Assembly (NCBI RefSeq): GCF_016859285.1
Contig: NC_053415.1
Coordinates: forward strand, 3,237,501 to 3,301,500
Reading direction: 5' to 3'
DNA length: 64,000 nt
Source: Xiphias gladius
Taxonomy: Eukaryota > Chordata > Actinopteri > Istiophoriformes > Xiphiidae
The notes under the pieces are model-generated. The model was given only the letters and a program-made list of their open reading frames with translations, did not search any database and was not told the origin of the DNA. Of the stretch, positions 3,954 to 63,907 are shown one piece after another. The first letter of the stretch is position 1. Each line of letters starts with the position of its first letter. The translations under genes were made by a program, and so were the position numbers.

Positions 3954-6828
3954 CATCAGTACTGATCCTGTAAACGTCTTGCCTGTGGTCTGCTCAGGCC
4001 ACTCGGCACAGATATGGCTGAACAACATTACAGGTTGCACTAGGTTGTCTGAGCGATCACTTCAATGCTTGCCAAACCGGAAACCAGTCCTGCCAGCCTG
4101 AATTGATTTAGTTAGTAAACCAGCTCTGCTCCCAGGCTCAGCTTTGTACAGGCAGAGATAGAGATGAAAATAATGGGGGGGTTACATGATGAATGGTTAA
4201 TGACAAGAGCCTAACTGGTCTCCTAGAGGCAGGAGAGGAGTGAAAAAAAAGGCGGATCACAGGTGGACTGAAGTGCAAATCACACCCTTGTTTACTGTTT
4301 GTTTACTGCTGTTTTGCGGTCCTGCAGCATCGGGAGTTAAACTTGGGCTGAAATCTGTCGACAGTAATTCCCACTGGGGCCACTGAAATCTCAAAATCTA
4401 TGCACGGGAGTGTGTTTGAGTGAAAATGTCAATCAAATATAATATATTCTTTCTCATTGTCTTCTCTTGCTGAAAAGACAATCAGTCTTTTTAAGACTGA
4501 TTACTTAAAATTTCAGAATACCCCAATCATGTTCTGACCAAAGGACAAGTCAGCAATGCTCCCTTTTTTATTTAATGCTCTTTATTTTTCTGAGAATTAT
4601 TTGTATGACCAGCATTATAGGGTCATAAGATTATTTTGTTAAATCTACCATCTTAAACCAATGCAGTCAGTCAATGCTGTTGGCATGATGATTTAAGCTT
4701 CTTTTAGTGTTGTAGTAGTAGGTCAGATAACTGCATTAAAAAAAAGCATTAAAATTTGATACAATATAACTGGTATGAATAAAAGACATGTGACCCAGGT
4801 GTGTGTTGAATGTAATCACACAAGAGCTCATGAAATACTGCATCAGTGTGAATCTTGAGGTGGGCGTGGTCTCTGCATGACAAGACAGGATGAACCAACA
4901 ATTATGGAGAACGCAGGGAACACTTCATATATCAAGCCTGTGCACACAGCAAGAGCAGAAATGCACTAAAGGACACTCAGACAACTAACAGACTAAATAT
5001 AACCTTATCTAGAGACTGCAATTATCTACAAACCATCACAGTGAAATTCAGTGTTTTTCTGACAAACTGCTGCTCCTCACTCAGTCTTGCTTCCTTAACA
5101 GCACCACACCTCTGTAATTAGCCAATCATTAGGCATATGCAGACTTGTTTTGTGTTGATTTAGCAGCTGAAACCACAGGTGGGAGGTGGCTGGTAGCTTG
5201 ACACACCCTGAGATGGATGAGACACAGAGAAGGAGGTCGCTCTGGAAAATGACAACTGCAATCAAGAGTTGTCTACCAAGCACATGACTCTTTCCATTTT
5301 AAAATGTATTTAAATGAATCATTAAATCGCTATATTTAGAAACAATCAAAATAGCCTGGCAACGGCAGTCAGTGATGTTCACACTTTCTGCTCCTTTAAG
5401 AAGGGCATTTCCAAGACAATACTGATCACATCACACACAAAGACAAGTCACTCCTATTTATATGGATATTAGGGAATAAACAAAGAAATGGTGAAGTTGC
5501 ATCACGTAACATGATCATGCTAGACGAGTCTTACAAGAGCATTAAAAATGGTAATTTCTATGTGATTTATTACACCTGGCTATTGAAGGATTTTTTCCTT
5601 AAATTTAGAATTACCTGTAAGAATTCATTTTCCAAAGGTGAATAAAATCTACAGGGGAATTTATTAACATTTTCCAATATGTTACCAATGCCAAACAAGT
5701 AGGCTTTCCTGTTTCACGTTTTCCCTAGGTGCACTGGAACTTGCGTATAGATTATTTGTTAGGCAGGAGGTTAGTGGCCAATTCTGCCACATAAAAGAGA
5801 CCACCCTTATTATTATCTTTGATACAACATTAAAACATAACAAGTTAGCTGGAGCATTTACAGTGACAAGGAGAACACCTGATAGTCCCCAATCAAAAGT
5901 TTTTTTTTTTTAATGTATACTGTCTACACTACTATACTATTAACAGCTGCAAACATACTGTAATGCTTCAGTAATCATTTGAACTAAGCTGAAATTCAAA
6001 AGGTTTAGAGCCTGACACTTCCAAAAGTATTAACGTAAAAAAGTTACAAATTGTCCTCCCTGTGCTCTCCTGCTTGAGACTGTAAAAAGGAACAAATGAA
6101 GTTTGTTTCTCTCTTAGTAACCATGGTAGGCCCTTCTTTTATGTTTTAAAACAGCTGAGATACAGTACTAGTGTTGCTGTCCAAAATTTTATTTTGTTCC
6201 AGAAAAATAAAATACATTTAAATCTCAAATGTGCTGTGAGCCCAAACTGAAATTTATTGTTAGCCTGACAAGATGTTAAACCCATTCCAATCAGAGATAT
6301 AGAAGGAAGAGTACACTGAGTGGTTCTGTTCTTCTGCAAAAAGAGTTATCCCTTACACTTGTCAGTTAACCAGTATGGTGGTAAAACAATCTAATGTTTG
6401 TTATCTAAACAAAAAAAGGTATGTATTGCAAAGAAAGCACAGTGTTTGCCTGAATACTAAACTGAAGTTTGCCTTGTTTTAGAGGCAACCCCCAAACCTC
6501 CATTTATGGTGAATGAATCTCTCTCTCTCTCTCTCTCGAACTGAATAGTTTCCATATTAGTTACCAAGTGATCGGGTTGGCCTGTGCTAAGGATACTGCC
6601 TCTAAGGGGGTAACTAACAAGAAAAATAGTGCCACTGAAAAAATAAAGATATGTTTTTGTAGCAGCCCTATCAGCCCAAAGAAGGTATACATCGTCACTT
6701 GTTGTGACAGGTTGACAGACTGACTCACCTAAGCCTCTACAAGCCTTTTAGTACCCAGAAAACACAGAAAAACAACGCATCTTCTATCCAGTGCTTACAA
6801 CAGGAAAACTAATTTCTTGCATTTCTCA
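3954..6828. other. clasp1 intron sequence, no gene recognised
   Basis: AT-rich intron DNA between two Tc1-like insertions. The short open frames on both strands lack codon-like structure and recognised motifs. A (CT)n tract of about 22 bp lies at 6,513-6,536 and a homopolymer T run at 5,900-5,911. I see no exon with a convincing splice pair. Confidence 0.6.
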
Positions 6829-13823: not shown

Positions 13824-16800
13824 TCACTTCGCCTCTGTGTCCTCTTCAGAGGGATCCTCGCTCTCTGAGTCATCATCCTCGTCATTGTTACTGTCCTCCT
13901 CCTCCTCCTCCTCAGAACACTCTTCATCTTTCTCTACAGCTGGAATCTTAATAACAATCTCGTCATCTGCATCATCGTCGACGACCATGGACTTCCTCCT
14001 CTCCAGGAGAGAGGGGGTGCAGACCGGTGTGGTGTCCTGAAATGGAAGAGAGAAGCTCATCAGCCACACGTGATCATTCTGGTACTGAGATGATGCCGAT
14101 TTGCTTTGTTCAAGTTTTCCCTTGAATCTTTACAGCTCTGATTTTCCCTGGAGTTGATACAGTATGTTGGTACATGGGTTTTATCACGCAGCCACTAAGA
14201 GACACACGCAATAAGCTTTACGCACCACAGTACTATAGGCACAGTTATCTGACCCCAGACCACTGATACACCTGGGGTCATTTTCAGTCTGTGCCAAAGC
14301 TAAATATAATATCATCAAAGTTGGCCTTACATCACTACACGTAGACACATTCATGGAGTCAGAGGACTTTTTCTTCTGAGGCACCTGGGCAGCCTGGAGA
14401 AGCAAAATGAGCACGAAAGGTTAACATAATTCAAACATACAGTATAAAACCTAGTGGATTAGCTCAGGTATGTTGTACATATAAAACCCCATGCTTTGAT
14501 TGGAAGAAATGTCAATTATCAAAGCTTCATCTGATGTTTCCAGACGATGACAGTTAGTTATATTCCTAATCTGAAGCTCCCACGTGCAAAGCTCGGAGCC
14601 AATATTCAGTGATCATATACTTATAGTGCTTAAGGTTTGCTATTTATTCCAAGGGCGACATTTTTTTTTTAGCTCAGGTAAATAGACAACAGCTAGCTGC
14701 CATTTAAAGTTATAATTCAAAACTCCAAACACTTACAAATCCTGGGAAGTCATAGTCTATGCCGTGTGCTGCGAGCCTCTTGCGGAGCTTCGACTCTTTC
14801 CGCAGGAGTTTGTCTCTCATCTTCTCAGCCTGCGCGGCTGTGCGTTTCTTATTGTAGCGTGCCACAGCGGGATATGAGGGTTCTTTAAATTCCCTTTGGG
14901 AGCCAACAAACAGCTTCTCGTGCACCTTCTCCGGTGGAATCACATGGCCTAGAAAAAAGTAAGAAGCAACAAGTTAAGAGTTGCATGTAGATTAATAGTT
15001 TTACAGTAAAATCACTGTCATCACTGGCGGCAAAGTAATGTCATGAGGTGTGAAGGCTAACGAGAGGTATAAAAATCAAGCAAAAAATCGTGGTCTTGCA
15101 GTTAACAGATTAAACATAACATTGACTAAATACTAATTCTTCTATTTTAGTGTCGTGGCACTGACAGGACCTATTAGGTCATTTTTATCTGCTTTAACTC
15201 ATTTGTGCATCAGGTGACATCACCAAGACTGCTCTCTAGGAAAACAGGAATTGTGCTGGTAATTATCAGACTTGTACACAATACTCACATTTGATGAGTC
15301 TCTCTCCCATGAGGTAATTGTTCATGGTCTCTGCGACAATTTTAGCTACTTCATCACAATCATACTCCACAAATGCATAGCCTTTGCTTCCACCTGTCTT
15401 CAAGGGTTAGGGTTAGATACAGGACAGAAAACAGATGAATAACGCATGTCTGAATCAGTTCATAGCACACATCTGCACTGGATTCAGACTAATATGACTC
15501 CCATGATTAACTTATTTCCATTTAATGCTTTTATACGGTAGGCTCCACATCATTTTAGTTTTCCATATGCTTTTGTTGGCACATGGGTTTTATCACTCTG
15601 CAAATGTGTGTGCAGGTGATAAGCTAAACATACCACAATACTTTAGGCTCAGTTATCTGACCCCAGATCACTGTTAAATCTGAGCTCATTTTCAGTCGGA
15701 GCCAAAATTCGAATAACCGAGGAGCGAACAATCAGCAGGATCACTGCTACAATTTCCAGTTAAACTAACAGAACAACTGTATCAACCTTCATCTCCTGTA
15801 GCAAACTAAGAAAATCTTTGCTCTTGCTTTATGTGCCATGGACAGGATAAGCAAAAAAGAGTTTAGACAGCCAAAATGCTCTTATTATTTCTCATCCCAC
15901 TTCTTCAAGTAAGGAAATTAGGATTGACACTGTCAGATATGTAAAACATGTAGTTATTACATTCTCAGCGTTACCTTTTTACTCCTGGACAGCCGCAGCC
16001 TCAAGACCTTCCCAAACTGTTGGAAGTAAGATCTGAGCTGAGGCTCAAACAGGCCCAGGGGCAGGTGGCCGACATAAACCACTCCTGGGGTCAAACGGTT
16101 CCCCTGAGGGCGGGAGGGGGGGGGGAGAACAGAGTTACATCGGCAAAAACAAAATGTGCGTTCTGGAGTATAGGGGTACAATCAGTTAGACATTTACTTT
16201 CCACTTTTAGCCATATATTATACACCTATGTACACTATGATTGTCATTACTATTCGTTACCAGTGTTGTGTGTCACAGAGCTCTTTTCATCATTTTCTAA
16301 AACTCTAGACAGTCAACGCTGAAAGAAAAGGACCGGCAGGCAGGCCAAGTGCTGACACATCTGCAAGTTACACGAGAGGCCAGCGGTCTCTGCCGGGGCA
16401 CGCATCCAAGTACGTGACCCTATTGTGTCACCATTTGACATAACGACTACCATGATACTGGACTCTGTGGAAATACTAACGTCTTGGGGTCGCCATAGTA
16501 CAACACTTGGTCATGGCAAAAACGTCAACAGTTGCCATTGCTGAATTAGATCACAAATTCTAACGGAGCGGGGGAAAAGCTGTAACGCCTGTTATATCTC
16601 CGAGAATAAAGATAAAATATATTGTCGAGCTAAATGAACTTAAGTCACCCTCGTGTAGTACCGTCCCATATTTCTTTCAGGGCCACCACATGATTTCGAC
16701 CCACCTTGCCCGATTTGTTCTTCTTCACCTCCTGCACCTTCTTCTTGAACTCAGACTCTTGTTTAGGGTTGAGCGCCAGCAGTTCTTTCGCCGGCTTAGT

Positions 16801-16827
16801 TGCCGTTTCTGCTTTACTTTCGGTCAT
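13824..16827 (-). CDS. nifk: NIFK, nucleolar protein interacting with the FHA domain of Ki-67 (complete)
   Basis: NIFK is a nucleolar RNA-binding protein that takes part in pre-rRNA processing and binds the Ki-67 FHA domain in mitosis. Exons run 16,827-16,705, 16,103-15,975, 15,397-15,289, 14,948-14,737, 14,393-14,331 and 14,036-13,824. All phases agree and give 282 aa. An RRM spans about residues 48-120, with RNP2 VVYVGHLP and RNP1 KGYAFVEY. A basic stretch around residues 120-190 includes [18 protein letters not shown] and ends GIDYDFPGF, a family signature. The last exon begins [15 protein letters not shown], matching the human segment whose threonines 234 and 238 are phosphorylated for Ki-67 binding. 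A run of acidic residues ends the protein. The N-terminal 45 residues are Lys-rich and fish-specific. Introns 2 and 5 carry H/ACA snoRNA candidates. Confidence 0.95.
14162..14297 (-). ncRNA. H/ACA-type snoRNA candidate in nifk intron 5 (copy A)
   Basis: Read on the minus strand (same sense as nifk), this 136-nt segment folds as hairpin, H box, hairpin, ACA. Hairpin 1 has outer stem GGCACAG/CTGTGCC and upper stem TGACCCCAG/CTGGGGTCA, with ACTGAAAA and GATAA as the two unpaired pocket strands. The hinge ATAGTA (14,231-14,236) fits ANANNA. Hairpin 2 closes with TGGTGCGT/ATGTACCA and an upper stem around TTATTGCG/TGCGTGATAA that uses wobbles. The 3' end is ACATAC: ACA exactly three bases from the end. 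A homologue of identical length lies in intron 2. The family and target uridine are not assigned. Folding was done by eye. Confidence 0.8.
14394..14736. other. nifk intron 4, possible third small-RNA-like segment
   Basis: Within this intron the minus-strand interval 14,603-14,468 begins GGCTCCGA and ends ACATAC, 136 nt apart like the two H/ACA candidates, and contains ATATAA as a possible H box. It has a perfect GCTTTGAT/ATCAAAGC stem, but hairpin 1 and the outer stem of hairpin 2 do not form in the H/ACA manner. I do not call it a snoRNA. Confidence 0.3.
15571..15706 (-). ncRNA. H/ACA-type snoRNA candidate in nifk intron 2 (copy B)
   Basis: This is the paralogue of the intron-5 segment, also 136 nt and in nifk sense. 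Hairpin 1 has outer stem GGCTC/GAGCC plus one further pair, and upper stem TGAGCTCAGAT/ATCTGGGGTCA with one mismatch. The hinge is AAAGTA (15,639-15,644). Hairpin 2 pairs TGGTATGT with ATGTGCCA, then TTATCAC with GTGATAA and CTGCA with TGCAG around an 8-base loop. The RNA ends ACAAAA, with ACA three bases from the end. Against copy A, stem positions differ with pairing kept (A-U becomes U-A in the outer stem of hairpin 1). The pocket strands GACTGAAAATGA, GGGTCAGATAACTG and GTGATAAAACCCATGT are unchanged. Target not assigned. Confidence 0.82.
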
Positions 16828-60700: not shown

Positions 60701-63491
60701 ATATTAGGTGTATTTTTTTTGGCAAAATGGGAGTTATCATTATGTGGACATGTATGATTCCAGTGACCAACTTCCAGTGAGAAACTTCCTTTCTTCACTT
60801 AGAGGCTATGTTTCACACGCATTTTCAACCCAGCAGCACAGAAGATCTAAGGTGGGCACCCAAGATTAGTGTCACCTATTCAGTATCTGTATTGAATAAA
60901 GGCCAGAAAAGTGCTTTTGCAGAACATTATGATAACAGTTAAATTGACCTTTGACCTTTGGGATATAAAATGCCATCTCTTCATCTTTTTATCTTATTGG
61001 ACATTTGTGTGAAATTTGGTCATAAATATTGTATGACTTCCTGAGTTATGGCCAAAAATGTTGTTTTTGAGGAAACAGTGACCTTGACCTTTGACCTCTG
61101 AAGACCTAACTAATCAGTTAATCTTGGGGTCCAACTAGACATGTGTGCCAGATGTAATGAAATTCCCTCCAGGTGTTCCTGATGTATCGCTTTTAAAAGA
61201 ATGGGCCGAACGTGAGGTTGCAGTGACGTCTGACCACCAAGATCTAATCAGTTCATCTTTGAGGCAAAGTCAACATTTTGAAGAAATTCCCTCAAGGCCT
61301 TTCTGAGATATGGCGTTCTTGAGAATAGGACGGACAACCCAAAACCATAATGCCTCTGGCAACGGCTGATGTTGGCGCACCGGCATAAAAACTGTACATA
61401 AAGTATTGATGGTAGTAACACATCAGGAAACAGTGATTCTGTGTTTGATGAATGTGTCAATACCAACCCAATTCTACAAAGTGTAATGATAGATGATGAT
61501 AATCAATAATAATATATATGGATAATGAACTGTTTGATATACCATCTGTGTGTGAACTCATATTTCAGTCTCTACAGTACTACACTACTCTGTACATATC
61601 GTGATTCCAGAAACACTGGAAGAAATGTTGCTGAGTCCTAAGCCCCCTAAGGACTCCTCCCAGCTGACCTGTAGGTGGTCCAGCAGGCGACCAGGTGTAG
61701 CCACCAGGATGTTTACACCGTTGGCCAGTTTTTGGGCCTCAGCTGAGCGGTTGCTGCCGCCCATGATCAAACCATAAGTGTGCACATGGTGTGTCATCAG
61801 CTCCTTCAGCACACCGTAGGTCTGCATTGCCAACTCGCGTGTGGGCGACAGGATCACCACACCAGTGCCTGAACAAAGGAGGACGAGAAAATTAGGTAGG
61901 CACTAAAAAAGAGACTTACAAATCTCAGATTACATAATGCAGTGTGATACATTAGGAAGAGAAATGCTGTCCCCTCTCTCAACAGCCCACAATGTGCTAA
62001 AGCTATGAAACATTGGGGAGAAACTGATGCTGCTGCATAGCACAGCTGAGCTGTTTGCACTACCTGCTACTGCCAGATACGGTTTATACAGTGCATTCTG
62101 CTTGTACTGTTTTACTTAATTGCTACTTTGCTACTTCTCTGTACTGTATTGTATTGGTTCTGTTGCTGCACTTCACATCCACTGATCTGTTGCACCCTTT
62201 ATTACTGCCTGACATCGGCTCACATTGCTTACAATTGTACTTATGCAACAGTACTAAAGATATTCTATTCTATTCTAAATGACATGTTGACAGGAGCATT
62301 ACCGTTCCTGGGCATGAACTTGAGTTTGTAGATGAGTTCTATAGATGGGATGAGGAAGGCCAAGGTTTTACCGCTGCCTGTCTTGGCTGCGGCCAGCACA
62401 TCCCTACAGATTCGCAAAACGAAAAAACAGAAACACAGTTGAAGTGTCTACAAAGTCACAAAACAACTCTGGTATAACTGCCTGTTCTGACTATCTAAAA
62501 ATTTGTGATTAAATTATAAATGATGATGCTAAAACATTTATAATCACTATTACATTATAATACATCAATTCCGGTTTTACAAATGTTCCACAAGAACTTT
62601 CCCTCCAGACTGACCTTCCTTCCAGCAGGGGACGAATACTTTTGTGCTGGATCTCGGTCATGTGTTCAAAGCCCATCTGCTTCACTCCTTTCAGCGTGTT
62701 CTCACTCACCAACCCATCAAGAGAGGCAAACGATGTGTCCTCAAATGCTCCTGAAGACACAGTAAATAACAGAATAATTGAAAGGCTTTCCTAAAAGCAA
62801 ATTTTATTTTAAAAAAAGGTCAAGATAACGCTTACCGAAATAGCATGAATATACATTAGAATTTTTTTTTTTTTTTTTAACTATTCTCTTGAAGAAGACA
62901 AGATAATCAAACTAGTCAAGACAAACATGTCCTTGCAGCTACTCCTGTCAGAGGAATAACAGTTGATTCCTCCTAAAGACAGCCACAAGCGTCTCTGTAT
63001 GCCTTAGTTGACACCCCATTCATGATGGAAACACTGAAAGGGCAACACATAAAGGCAACACAGCTGAATTTAGCTCTTAGTTTCCAGTGCATGTGTGTAT
63101 GTAGACTAAACAGTTAAGAGTTATAAAACTGATTTCTTTAATGTCATACAAGTAAGAAACTTAGTTAAATGAAACACAGTTGAAGTGTCTACAAAGTCAC
63201 AAAACAACTCTGGTATAACTGCCTGTTCTGACTATCTAAAAATTTGTGATTAAATTATAAATGATGATGCTAAAACATTTATAATCACTATTACATTATA
63301 ATACATCAATTCCGGTTTTACAAATGTTCCACAAGAACTTTCCCTCCAGACTGACCTTCCTTCCAGCAGGGGACGAATACTTTTGTGCTGGATCTCGGTC
63401 ATGTGTTCAAAGCCCATCTGCTTCACTCCTTTCAGCGTGTTCTCACTCACCAACCCAGCAAGAGAGGCAAACGATGTGTCCTCAAATGCTC
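57735..63491 (-). CDS. ddx18: DDX18 DEAD-box RNA helicase, C-terminal 500 residues (5' exons outside the window)
   Basis: DDX18 (yeast Has1) is an ATP-dependent nucleolar RNA helicase of ribosome assembly. Exons, 5' to 3': 63,491-63,356 or its duplicate 62,750-62,615 (Q motif, [13 protein letters not shown]); 62,403-62,303 (motif [10 protein letters not shown]); 61,868-61,669 ([16 protein letters not shown]); 60,518-60,404 (IIDEADRIL); 59,912-59,773 (LFSATQT); 59,372-59,211; 59,097-58,945 ([18 protein letters not shown]); 58,683-58,570 (HRVGRTARG); 58,406-58,350; 58,236-58,059; 57,880-57,735 (basic Gly-rich tail ending KGDKRQFSR). All junction phases agree when one Q-motif exon is used. Human DDX18 has 670 residues, so about 170 N-terminal residues should lie beyond 64,000. 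All core helicase motifs are intact. Confidence 0.95.
59454..59754. mobile_element. hAT-type MITE in a ddx18 intron
   Basis: The ends are inverted: TAGGGCTGTCAC at the left and GTGACAGCCCTA at the right, 301 bp apart. Flanking octamers are CTATGCAG (59,446-59,453) and GAATGCAG (59,755-59,762), sharing six of eight bases, as for an aged 8-bp hAT target duplication. There is no coding capacity. On the ddx18 strand its edge lies 18 bases downstream of the exon that ends at 59,773. Confidence 0.75.
60945..60957 (-). promoter_or_regulatory. perfect DR1 nuclear-receptor motif
   Basis: Plus strand reads TGACCT T TGACCT, which on the minus strand is AGGTCA A AGGTCA, the consensus for HNF4, COUP-TF and PPAR/RXR dimers. 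It lies inside an interspersed repeat. Function unknown. Confidence 0.5.
61079..61097 (-). promoter_or_regulatory. triple nuclear-receptor half-site (DR0 + DR1)
   Basis: Three TGACCT half-sites in the same direction: two abutting and the third after a single T, so the last two form a perfect DR1 (61,085-61,097). Also within the interspersed repeat. Confidence 0.5.
62430..63170. repeat. direct tandem duplication in ddx18, unit 1
   Basis: Unit of 741 bp starting GAAACACAGTTGAAGTGTCT. It contains the Q-motif exon (62,615-62,750) and flanking intron. The following unit is nearly identical. Differences I saw are one exon base (CCATCAAG against CCAGCAAG, Asp to Ala on the coding strand) and the length of a T run near 62,860. 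Confidence 0.95.
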
Positions 63492-63907
63492 CTGAAGACA
63501 CAGTAAATAACAGAATAATTGAAAGGCTTTCCTAAAAGCAAATTTTATTTTAAAAAAAGGTCAAGATAACGCTTACCGAAATAGCATGAATATACATTAG
63601 AATTTTTTTTTTTTAAACTATTCTCTTGAAGAAGACAAGATAATCAAACTAGTCAAGACAAACATGTCCTTGCAGCTACTCCTGTCAGAGGAATAACAGT
63701 TGATTCCTCCTAAAGACAGCCACAAGCGTCTCTGTATGCCTTAGTTGACACCCCATTCATGATGGAAACACTGAAAGGGCAACACATAAAGGCAACACAG
63801 CTGAATTTAGCTCTTAGTTTCCAGTGCATGTGTGTATGTAGACTAAACAGTTAAGAGTTATAAAACTGATTTCTTTAATGTCATACAAGTAAGAAACTTA
63901 GTTAAAT
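63171..63907. repeat. direct tandem duplication in ddx18, unit 2
   Basis: Second unit of about 737 bp, containing the exon copy at 63,356-63,491. The next 13 bases, GAAACACAGTTGA at 63,908-63,920, repeat the start of the unit once more, so the duplication is bounded by a 13-bp direct repeat. The sequence after 63,920 is unrelated to unit 1. Confidence 0.95.

Follow-up and report, generated by a model that had tools for sequence, protein, structure and literature searches.

Two ACA64 snoRNAs in introns of nifk

Within the 64,000 nucleotides of the Xiphias gladius genome analysed here (assembly GCF_016859285.1, contig NC_053415.1, positions 3,237,501 to 3,301,500; hereafter the window, to which positions refer), two introns of the predicted gene nifk each hold, on the minus strand, a box H/ACA small nucleolar RNA (snoRNA) of the ACA64 family (Rfam RF01225). 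They very probably represent a cis-duplicated, redundant pair of intron-encoded pseudouridylation guides, made by duplication within nifk. A cmscan search of the window against Rfam returned four matches over the gathering scores, namely these two and two SNORA13 matches elsewhere. Copy B, in intron 2 (15571..15706), scores 70.0 bits (match from 15700 to 15571, E = 1.8e-12) and copy A, in intron 5 (14162..14297), 66.8 bits (14292 to 14162, E = 1.1e-11), well over the gathering score of 35 bits that defines membership of RF01225, and both cover the model in full (positions 1-128 of 128). Because of these E-values for the window, chance resemblance is excluded. Each Rfam match corresponds to a segment of 136 nt minus 5-6 nt at its 5' end. 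Both segments had been delimited in an earlier, sequence-only reading as candidate H/ACA snoRNAs in host-gene sense; its coordinates were exact on re-check, and the Rfam covariance scoring that it proposed provided the named snoRNA family to which it could not match them.

The same two loci are the only ones retrieved from the whole genome (690.8 Mb), both in the search with RF01225 (48 of 17937 first-look candidates scored) and at the DNA level with copy B as query (2 of 2 candidates scored). The sequence-only reading had named many genomic copies as the mark of a repeat, and a genome-wide count of two by covariance model and by DNA rules out a dispersed repeat. No third ACA64 copy was detected by RF01225 between 13700 and 16900 at E up to 1, where the sole further Rfam match was a weak C/D snoRNA below the cut-off, nor in the whole window by a model built from copies A and B. 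In kind, both segments are conventional H/ACA guide snoRNAs of a known family, with nothing new about the class; the duplicate pair in one host gene is the sole departure from an ordinary, well-explained feature.

Folding in the nifk sense and inspection of the boxes support the architecture already described from the letters: in both copies, a hairpin, a hinge of the form ANANNA (box H), a second hairpin, and an ACA three nucleotides before the end. As box H, copy A has ATAGTA (14231..14236, minus strand) and copy B AAAGTA (15639..15644, minus strand), and the ACA boxes lie at 14165..14167 and 15574..15576, respectively (both minus strand). Each hairpin of an H/ACA snoRNA has an internal pocket, which precedes box H or ACA by about 14-16 nt. 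In both copies, box H begins 14 nt downstream of the first base of the hairpin-1 right guide and ACA begins 14 nt downstream of the first base of the hairpin-2 right guide, such that all four hairpins follow this spacing rule. The minimum free energy of the sense fold is -49.2 kcal/mol for copy A and -44.3 kcal/mol for copy B, corresponding to z = -3.33 and -4.13 against dinucleotide shuffles (0/200 and 1/200 as good). Hairpin 1 also stands out when folded alone (z = -3.92 in copy A and -2.98 in copy B), as does hairpin 2 of copy B (z = -3.92). Folds of the plus strand are weaker (z = -1.69 and -1.73, with 13/200 and 11/200 shuffles as good), which, together with the strand of the Rfam matches, rules out a plus-strand feature.

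Predicted targets in 28S rRNA

The pockets of the two copies present the same guide strands, all on the minus strand. Hairpin 1 has the left guide ACUGAAAAU (14280..14288 in copy A and 15688..15696 in copy B) and the right guide AGAU (14247..14250 and 15655..15658), and hairpin 2 the left guide GCU (14214..14216 and 15622..15624) and the right guide AAACCCA (14175..14181 and 15584..15590). Candidate targets were ranked on the ribosomal DNA (rDNA) of the fish itself, using one large-subunit (LSU) copy of the same genome (L017) with 743 uridines, three registers per hairpin and sites of the form right guide complement-U-N-left guide complement. Uridines with at least 3 positions on each side were scored (98 for hairpin 1 of copy A, 106 for hairpin 1 of copy B, 128 for hairpin 2 of copy A and 141 for hairpin 2 of copy B). 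With registers and pair weights set after both sites had been spotted by eye against a 28S stretch, the expected uridine ranked first of the 743 for all four hairpins. In both copies, the top site of hairpin 1 is CGCTTGATCT[T]G ATTTTCAGT (4 + 9 bp, AGAU with AUCU and ACUGAAAAU with AUUUUCAGU), whose uridine matches human pseudouridine (Psi) 4266 and scores 29 against 19.5 for the runner-up. The sequence-only reading had proposed looking for an rRNA site matching the pocket strands of this hairpin, and ACTGAAAA(T) and (A)GAT indeed fit the 28S around the Psi4266 homologue. In copies A and B alike, hairpin 2 has as its top site TTTTGGGTTT[T]A AGC (7 + 3 bp adjacent to the pocket, AAACCCA with UGGGUUU and GCU with AGC), whose uridine matches Psi4331; in copy B it scores 26.5 against 20.0. 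Shuffled pockets scored as high as the real ones at some place in the LSU in 1/200 (copy A) and 0/200 (copy B) cases for hairpin 1, and in 13/200 and 7/200 for hairpin 2. By this control, the predicted pocket-to-uridine complementarity expected of an H/ACA snoRNA is strong for hairpin 1 and modest for hairpin 2. The ranks stay first after adding an 18S (420 uridines) and a 5.8S (33) of the same genome, which rules out a better target in either of them. With the pockets of the RF01225 consensus, too, these two sites come out on top (hairpin 1, 28.5 against 25.0; hairpin 2, narrowly, 28.5 against 28.0), so that the fish copies share both best 28S sites with their family; by contrast, the consensus left guide of hairpin 1 pairs over 6 nt before a mismatch, whereas both fish copies pair over 9 nt.

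Human numbering was rested on a core of eight modified sites, because indels between rDNA copies shift the register. From 4263 to 4340, all eight human sites agree in their letters with the L017 LSU at one register only, the next best registers fitting 7, and the two target sites are 65 nt apart in it, the same distance as between human Psi4266 (90%) and Psi4331 (93%) in Table 1 of PMC6182160, where 4323 is Psi as well. A second method placed human Psi at 4263/4266/4269 and 4323/4331 (PMC11541003). The reference L017 is a single copy with small indels and a start that reads like 18S. The search motif occurs in 12 rDNA places, ten of which were read and two left out; the eight-site fingerprint is full in 6/10, the others showing 7, 7, 6, and 5 of the eight sites. 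When all 33 human sites from 4166 to 4522 are compared ungapped, 27 of them fit in L017, which is the same place as L006, against 12 to 23 in each of the remaining nine places. The rDNA contigs seem to contain two kinds of 28S (L005, L007, L009, L010, and L011 versus L006 and L008), which differ over a patch immediately 3' to the peptidyl-transferase motif and may reflect variant or degenerate rDNA, or assembly errors. In L017, a partial 18S match (4254-4650, minus strand) overlaps the start of the 28S match, suggesting a rearranged unit or a misassembly.

The assignment of hairpin 2 agrees with the prediction of 28S U4331 for ACA64 cited in a bat paper (PMC7108008), which hairpin 2 matches in both copies. 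An assignment of ACA64 to 4266 was not found in the literature searched, mostly at the level of listings, and we claim no novelty for it.

Several observations weigh against a pair of dual guides. Folded alone, hairpin 2 of copy A barely beats its shuffles (z = -2.07, 8/200), and, in a fold of the complete intron 2 (z = -2.29), hairpin 2 keeps its upper stem but its outer stem gives way to pairing with the flanks, hairpin 1 being retained. The left guide of hairpin 2 is short (3 bp, then a mismatch), the shuffle control of this pocket is modest, as seen above, and hairpin 2 of copy A fits the neighbouring uridine matching 4323 nearly as well (22.5 versus 25). In a bovine study, the sites predicted for ACA64 are different ones, 18S 1333 and 28S 267 (PMC12427106). 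Finally, a review (PMC6466398) lists another H/ACA snoRNA, SNORA23 (RF00319), for 28S-4331, and SNORA23 has a single match in this genome, at 94.8 bits (35 of 33080 candidates scored).

The presence of SNORA23 and the weak left guide of hairpin 2 would suit an alternative in which both copies are real ACA64 snoRNAs that guide through hairpin 1 alone, Psi4331 being made by SNORA23. We consider this possible, if rather unlikely. Copies A and B share the 7-nt right guide AAACCCA with the RF01225 consensus, all three have U4331 as their best-ranked site, and this is the very site of the prediction cited for ACA64 in PMC7108008. SNORA23 itself belongs to another family and another locus, ~14.7 Mb away on the same contig; it has no match between 13700 and 16900 of the window at E up to 1, the segments there matching RF01225 instead. 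Since SNORA23 is in the genome and is listed for 4331, this position may have more than one guide, and the main one need not be ACA64. No other guide for Psi4266 came up, although none was systematically sought.

Divergence between the two copies

Copies A and B can be aligned over 135 ungapped columns with 30 differences, and a BLAST comparison of introns 2 and 5 aligned 134 columns with 78% identity and limits within 3 nt of the snoRNA ends, in keeping with the earlier description of the segments as homologous yet diverged. Beyond these limits, the flanking intron sequences are no longer recognisable as related. With unalike flanks and alike RNAs, the pair must therefore be old enough to have lost the similarity of its flanks, or else the RNA alone was copied. 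The differences fall in 11 of the 68 paired columns and 19 of the 49 unpaired non-guide columns, with none in the 23 guide columns (5 of which are also counted among the paired ones), a result with P = 0.0017 under an even spread of differences. The constancy of the guide strands between diverged paralogues, first remarked by eye, is thus seen against 30 differences in total, and the snoRNA sequence itself appears to have been held since the duplication. In hairpin 2, the outer part of the left pocket strand differs between copies (AAAGC versus UUUAGC), whereas the rRNA-pairing nucleotides near the pocket are the same. Stem evolution is less telling: the RNAalifold consensus has 34 pairs, one changed on both sides with pairing kept, nine changed on one side and none broken, although that structure was derived from the same two sequences, which makes the absence of broken pairs partly a matter of construction and weak evidence taken alone. 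The sole compensatory change, in the hairpin-1 outer stem, turns A-U into U-A. The preserved pairing there, GGCAC/GTGCC against GGCTC/GAGCC, on which the sequence-only reading had relied, is real, but just one pair is truly compensatory. This outer stem has 7 bp in copy A and 5 bp in copy B, where a CxU opposition comes next.

The shorter outer stem of copy B, the several G-U pairs in hairpin 2 of copy A, which folds less well alone, and the 78% identity between copies could also be read as signs that a single working ACA64 is accompanied by a decaying paralogue, still intact-looking because the duplication is not very old. We find this unlikely because the guide positions are constant: all 23 are the same in both copies, the Rfam scores are alike and, whereas the intron flanks are already unrecognisable, both copies keep both boxes. 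The sharp loss of similarity at the RNA ends is as expected for retroposed RNA, and human H/ACA copies are thought to be mostly retroposed (PMC8178906), but a dispersed repeat or a retroposed snoRNA sequence without function is highly improbable with two copies genome-wide, both in sense orientation in one gene and unchanged at their guide positions. Retroposition may all the same have been the route to a working second copy.

The host gene and its surroundings

The gene nifk (13824..16827, minus strand) has six coding exons (16827-16705, 16103-15975, 15397-15289, 14948-14737, 14393-14331, and 14036-13824) encoding 282 aa, and its introns are bounded by GT-AG. Its identification is based on the open frame and the splice sites, on an FHA-Ki67 binding domain (PF12196, 66.3 bits) and an RRM domain (RRM_1), and on the match of its product to human NIFK, chain 8fkp_SH, the best solved relative (E = 2e-73). 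On this gene model, nifk is the predicted host of both snoRNAs, which are encoded on its sense strand and in separate introns, as had been read from the letters. The distances to the 5' and 3' splice sites are 268 nt and 173 nt for copy B in intron 2, and 33 nt and 125 nt for copy A in intron 5. A protein search of the genome with nifk gave six matches, five of them the exons at this locus; the sixth is weak (34%, on another contig), and a second nifk gene was rejected. We found no mention of nifk as a snoRNA host in the titles and abstract beginnings of the literature searched, nor of nifk in the main text, supplements aside, of the vertebrate and zebrafish snoRNA papers checked; the host gene of human ACA64 was likewise not found in the literature searched.

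The window also contains, at 62925-63057 and 63662-63794 (minus strand), two letter-identical copies of SNORA13 (RF00396, 58.4 bits). They belong to a tandem duplication in direct orientation, 754 bp at 99.2% with a step of 737 bases, and SNORA13 has five matches genome-wide, on three contigs.

Implications of a probable guide duplication

H/ACA snoRNAs are stable small RNAs bound by dyskerin, NOP10, NHP2, and GAR1, and their trimming out of debranched introns and binding by the dyskerin core proteins are established for the class. In the favoured explanation, a duplication inside nifk would have placed ACA64 copies in introns 2 and 5. Upon splicing of the nifk pre-mRNA, each copy would be trimmed out of its debranched intron and assembled with the dyskerin core into a ribonucleoprotein. 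In both copies, hairpin 1 would then direct the conversion to Psi of the 28S counterpart of human U4266 (AUCU-[U]G-AUUUUCAGU), and hairpin 2 that of the counterpart of human U4331 (UGGGUUU-[U]A-AGC), probably making the copies redundant. Set against the RF01225 family, a difference is that a single host gene, nifk, carries both copies. Families of human H/ACA snoRNAs whose expressed members all sit in the same host gene likewise have copies in different introns, and the nifk pair follows a pattern more typical of C/D snoRNAs. The host gene product is itself related to human NIFK, a protein of large-subunit assembly particles. That one transcript links two redundant dual guides, and with them the 28S pseudouridines 4266 and 4331, to a nucleolar assembly factor, the duplication raising the guide dose and protecting Psi4266, is an idea that we regard as unlikely.

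Although these snoRNAs leave the knowledge of the H/ACA class unchanged, they amount to two well-supported ACA64 copies in a fish in which, judging from complementarity, both hairpins can be assigned to named 28S sites. For one of these, Psi4331, and one other site, a decrease has been reported in dyskeratosis congenita cells (PMC6182160), such that knowing all guides of Psi4331 may be of some use.
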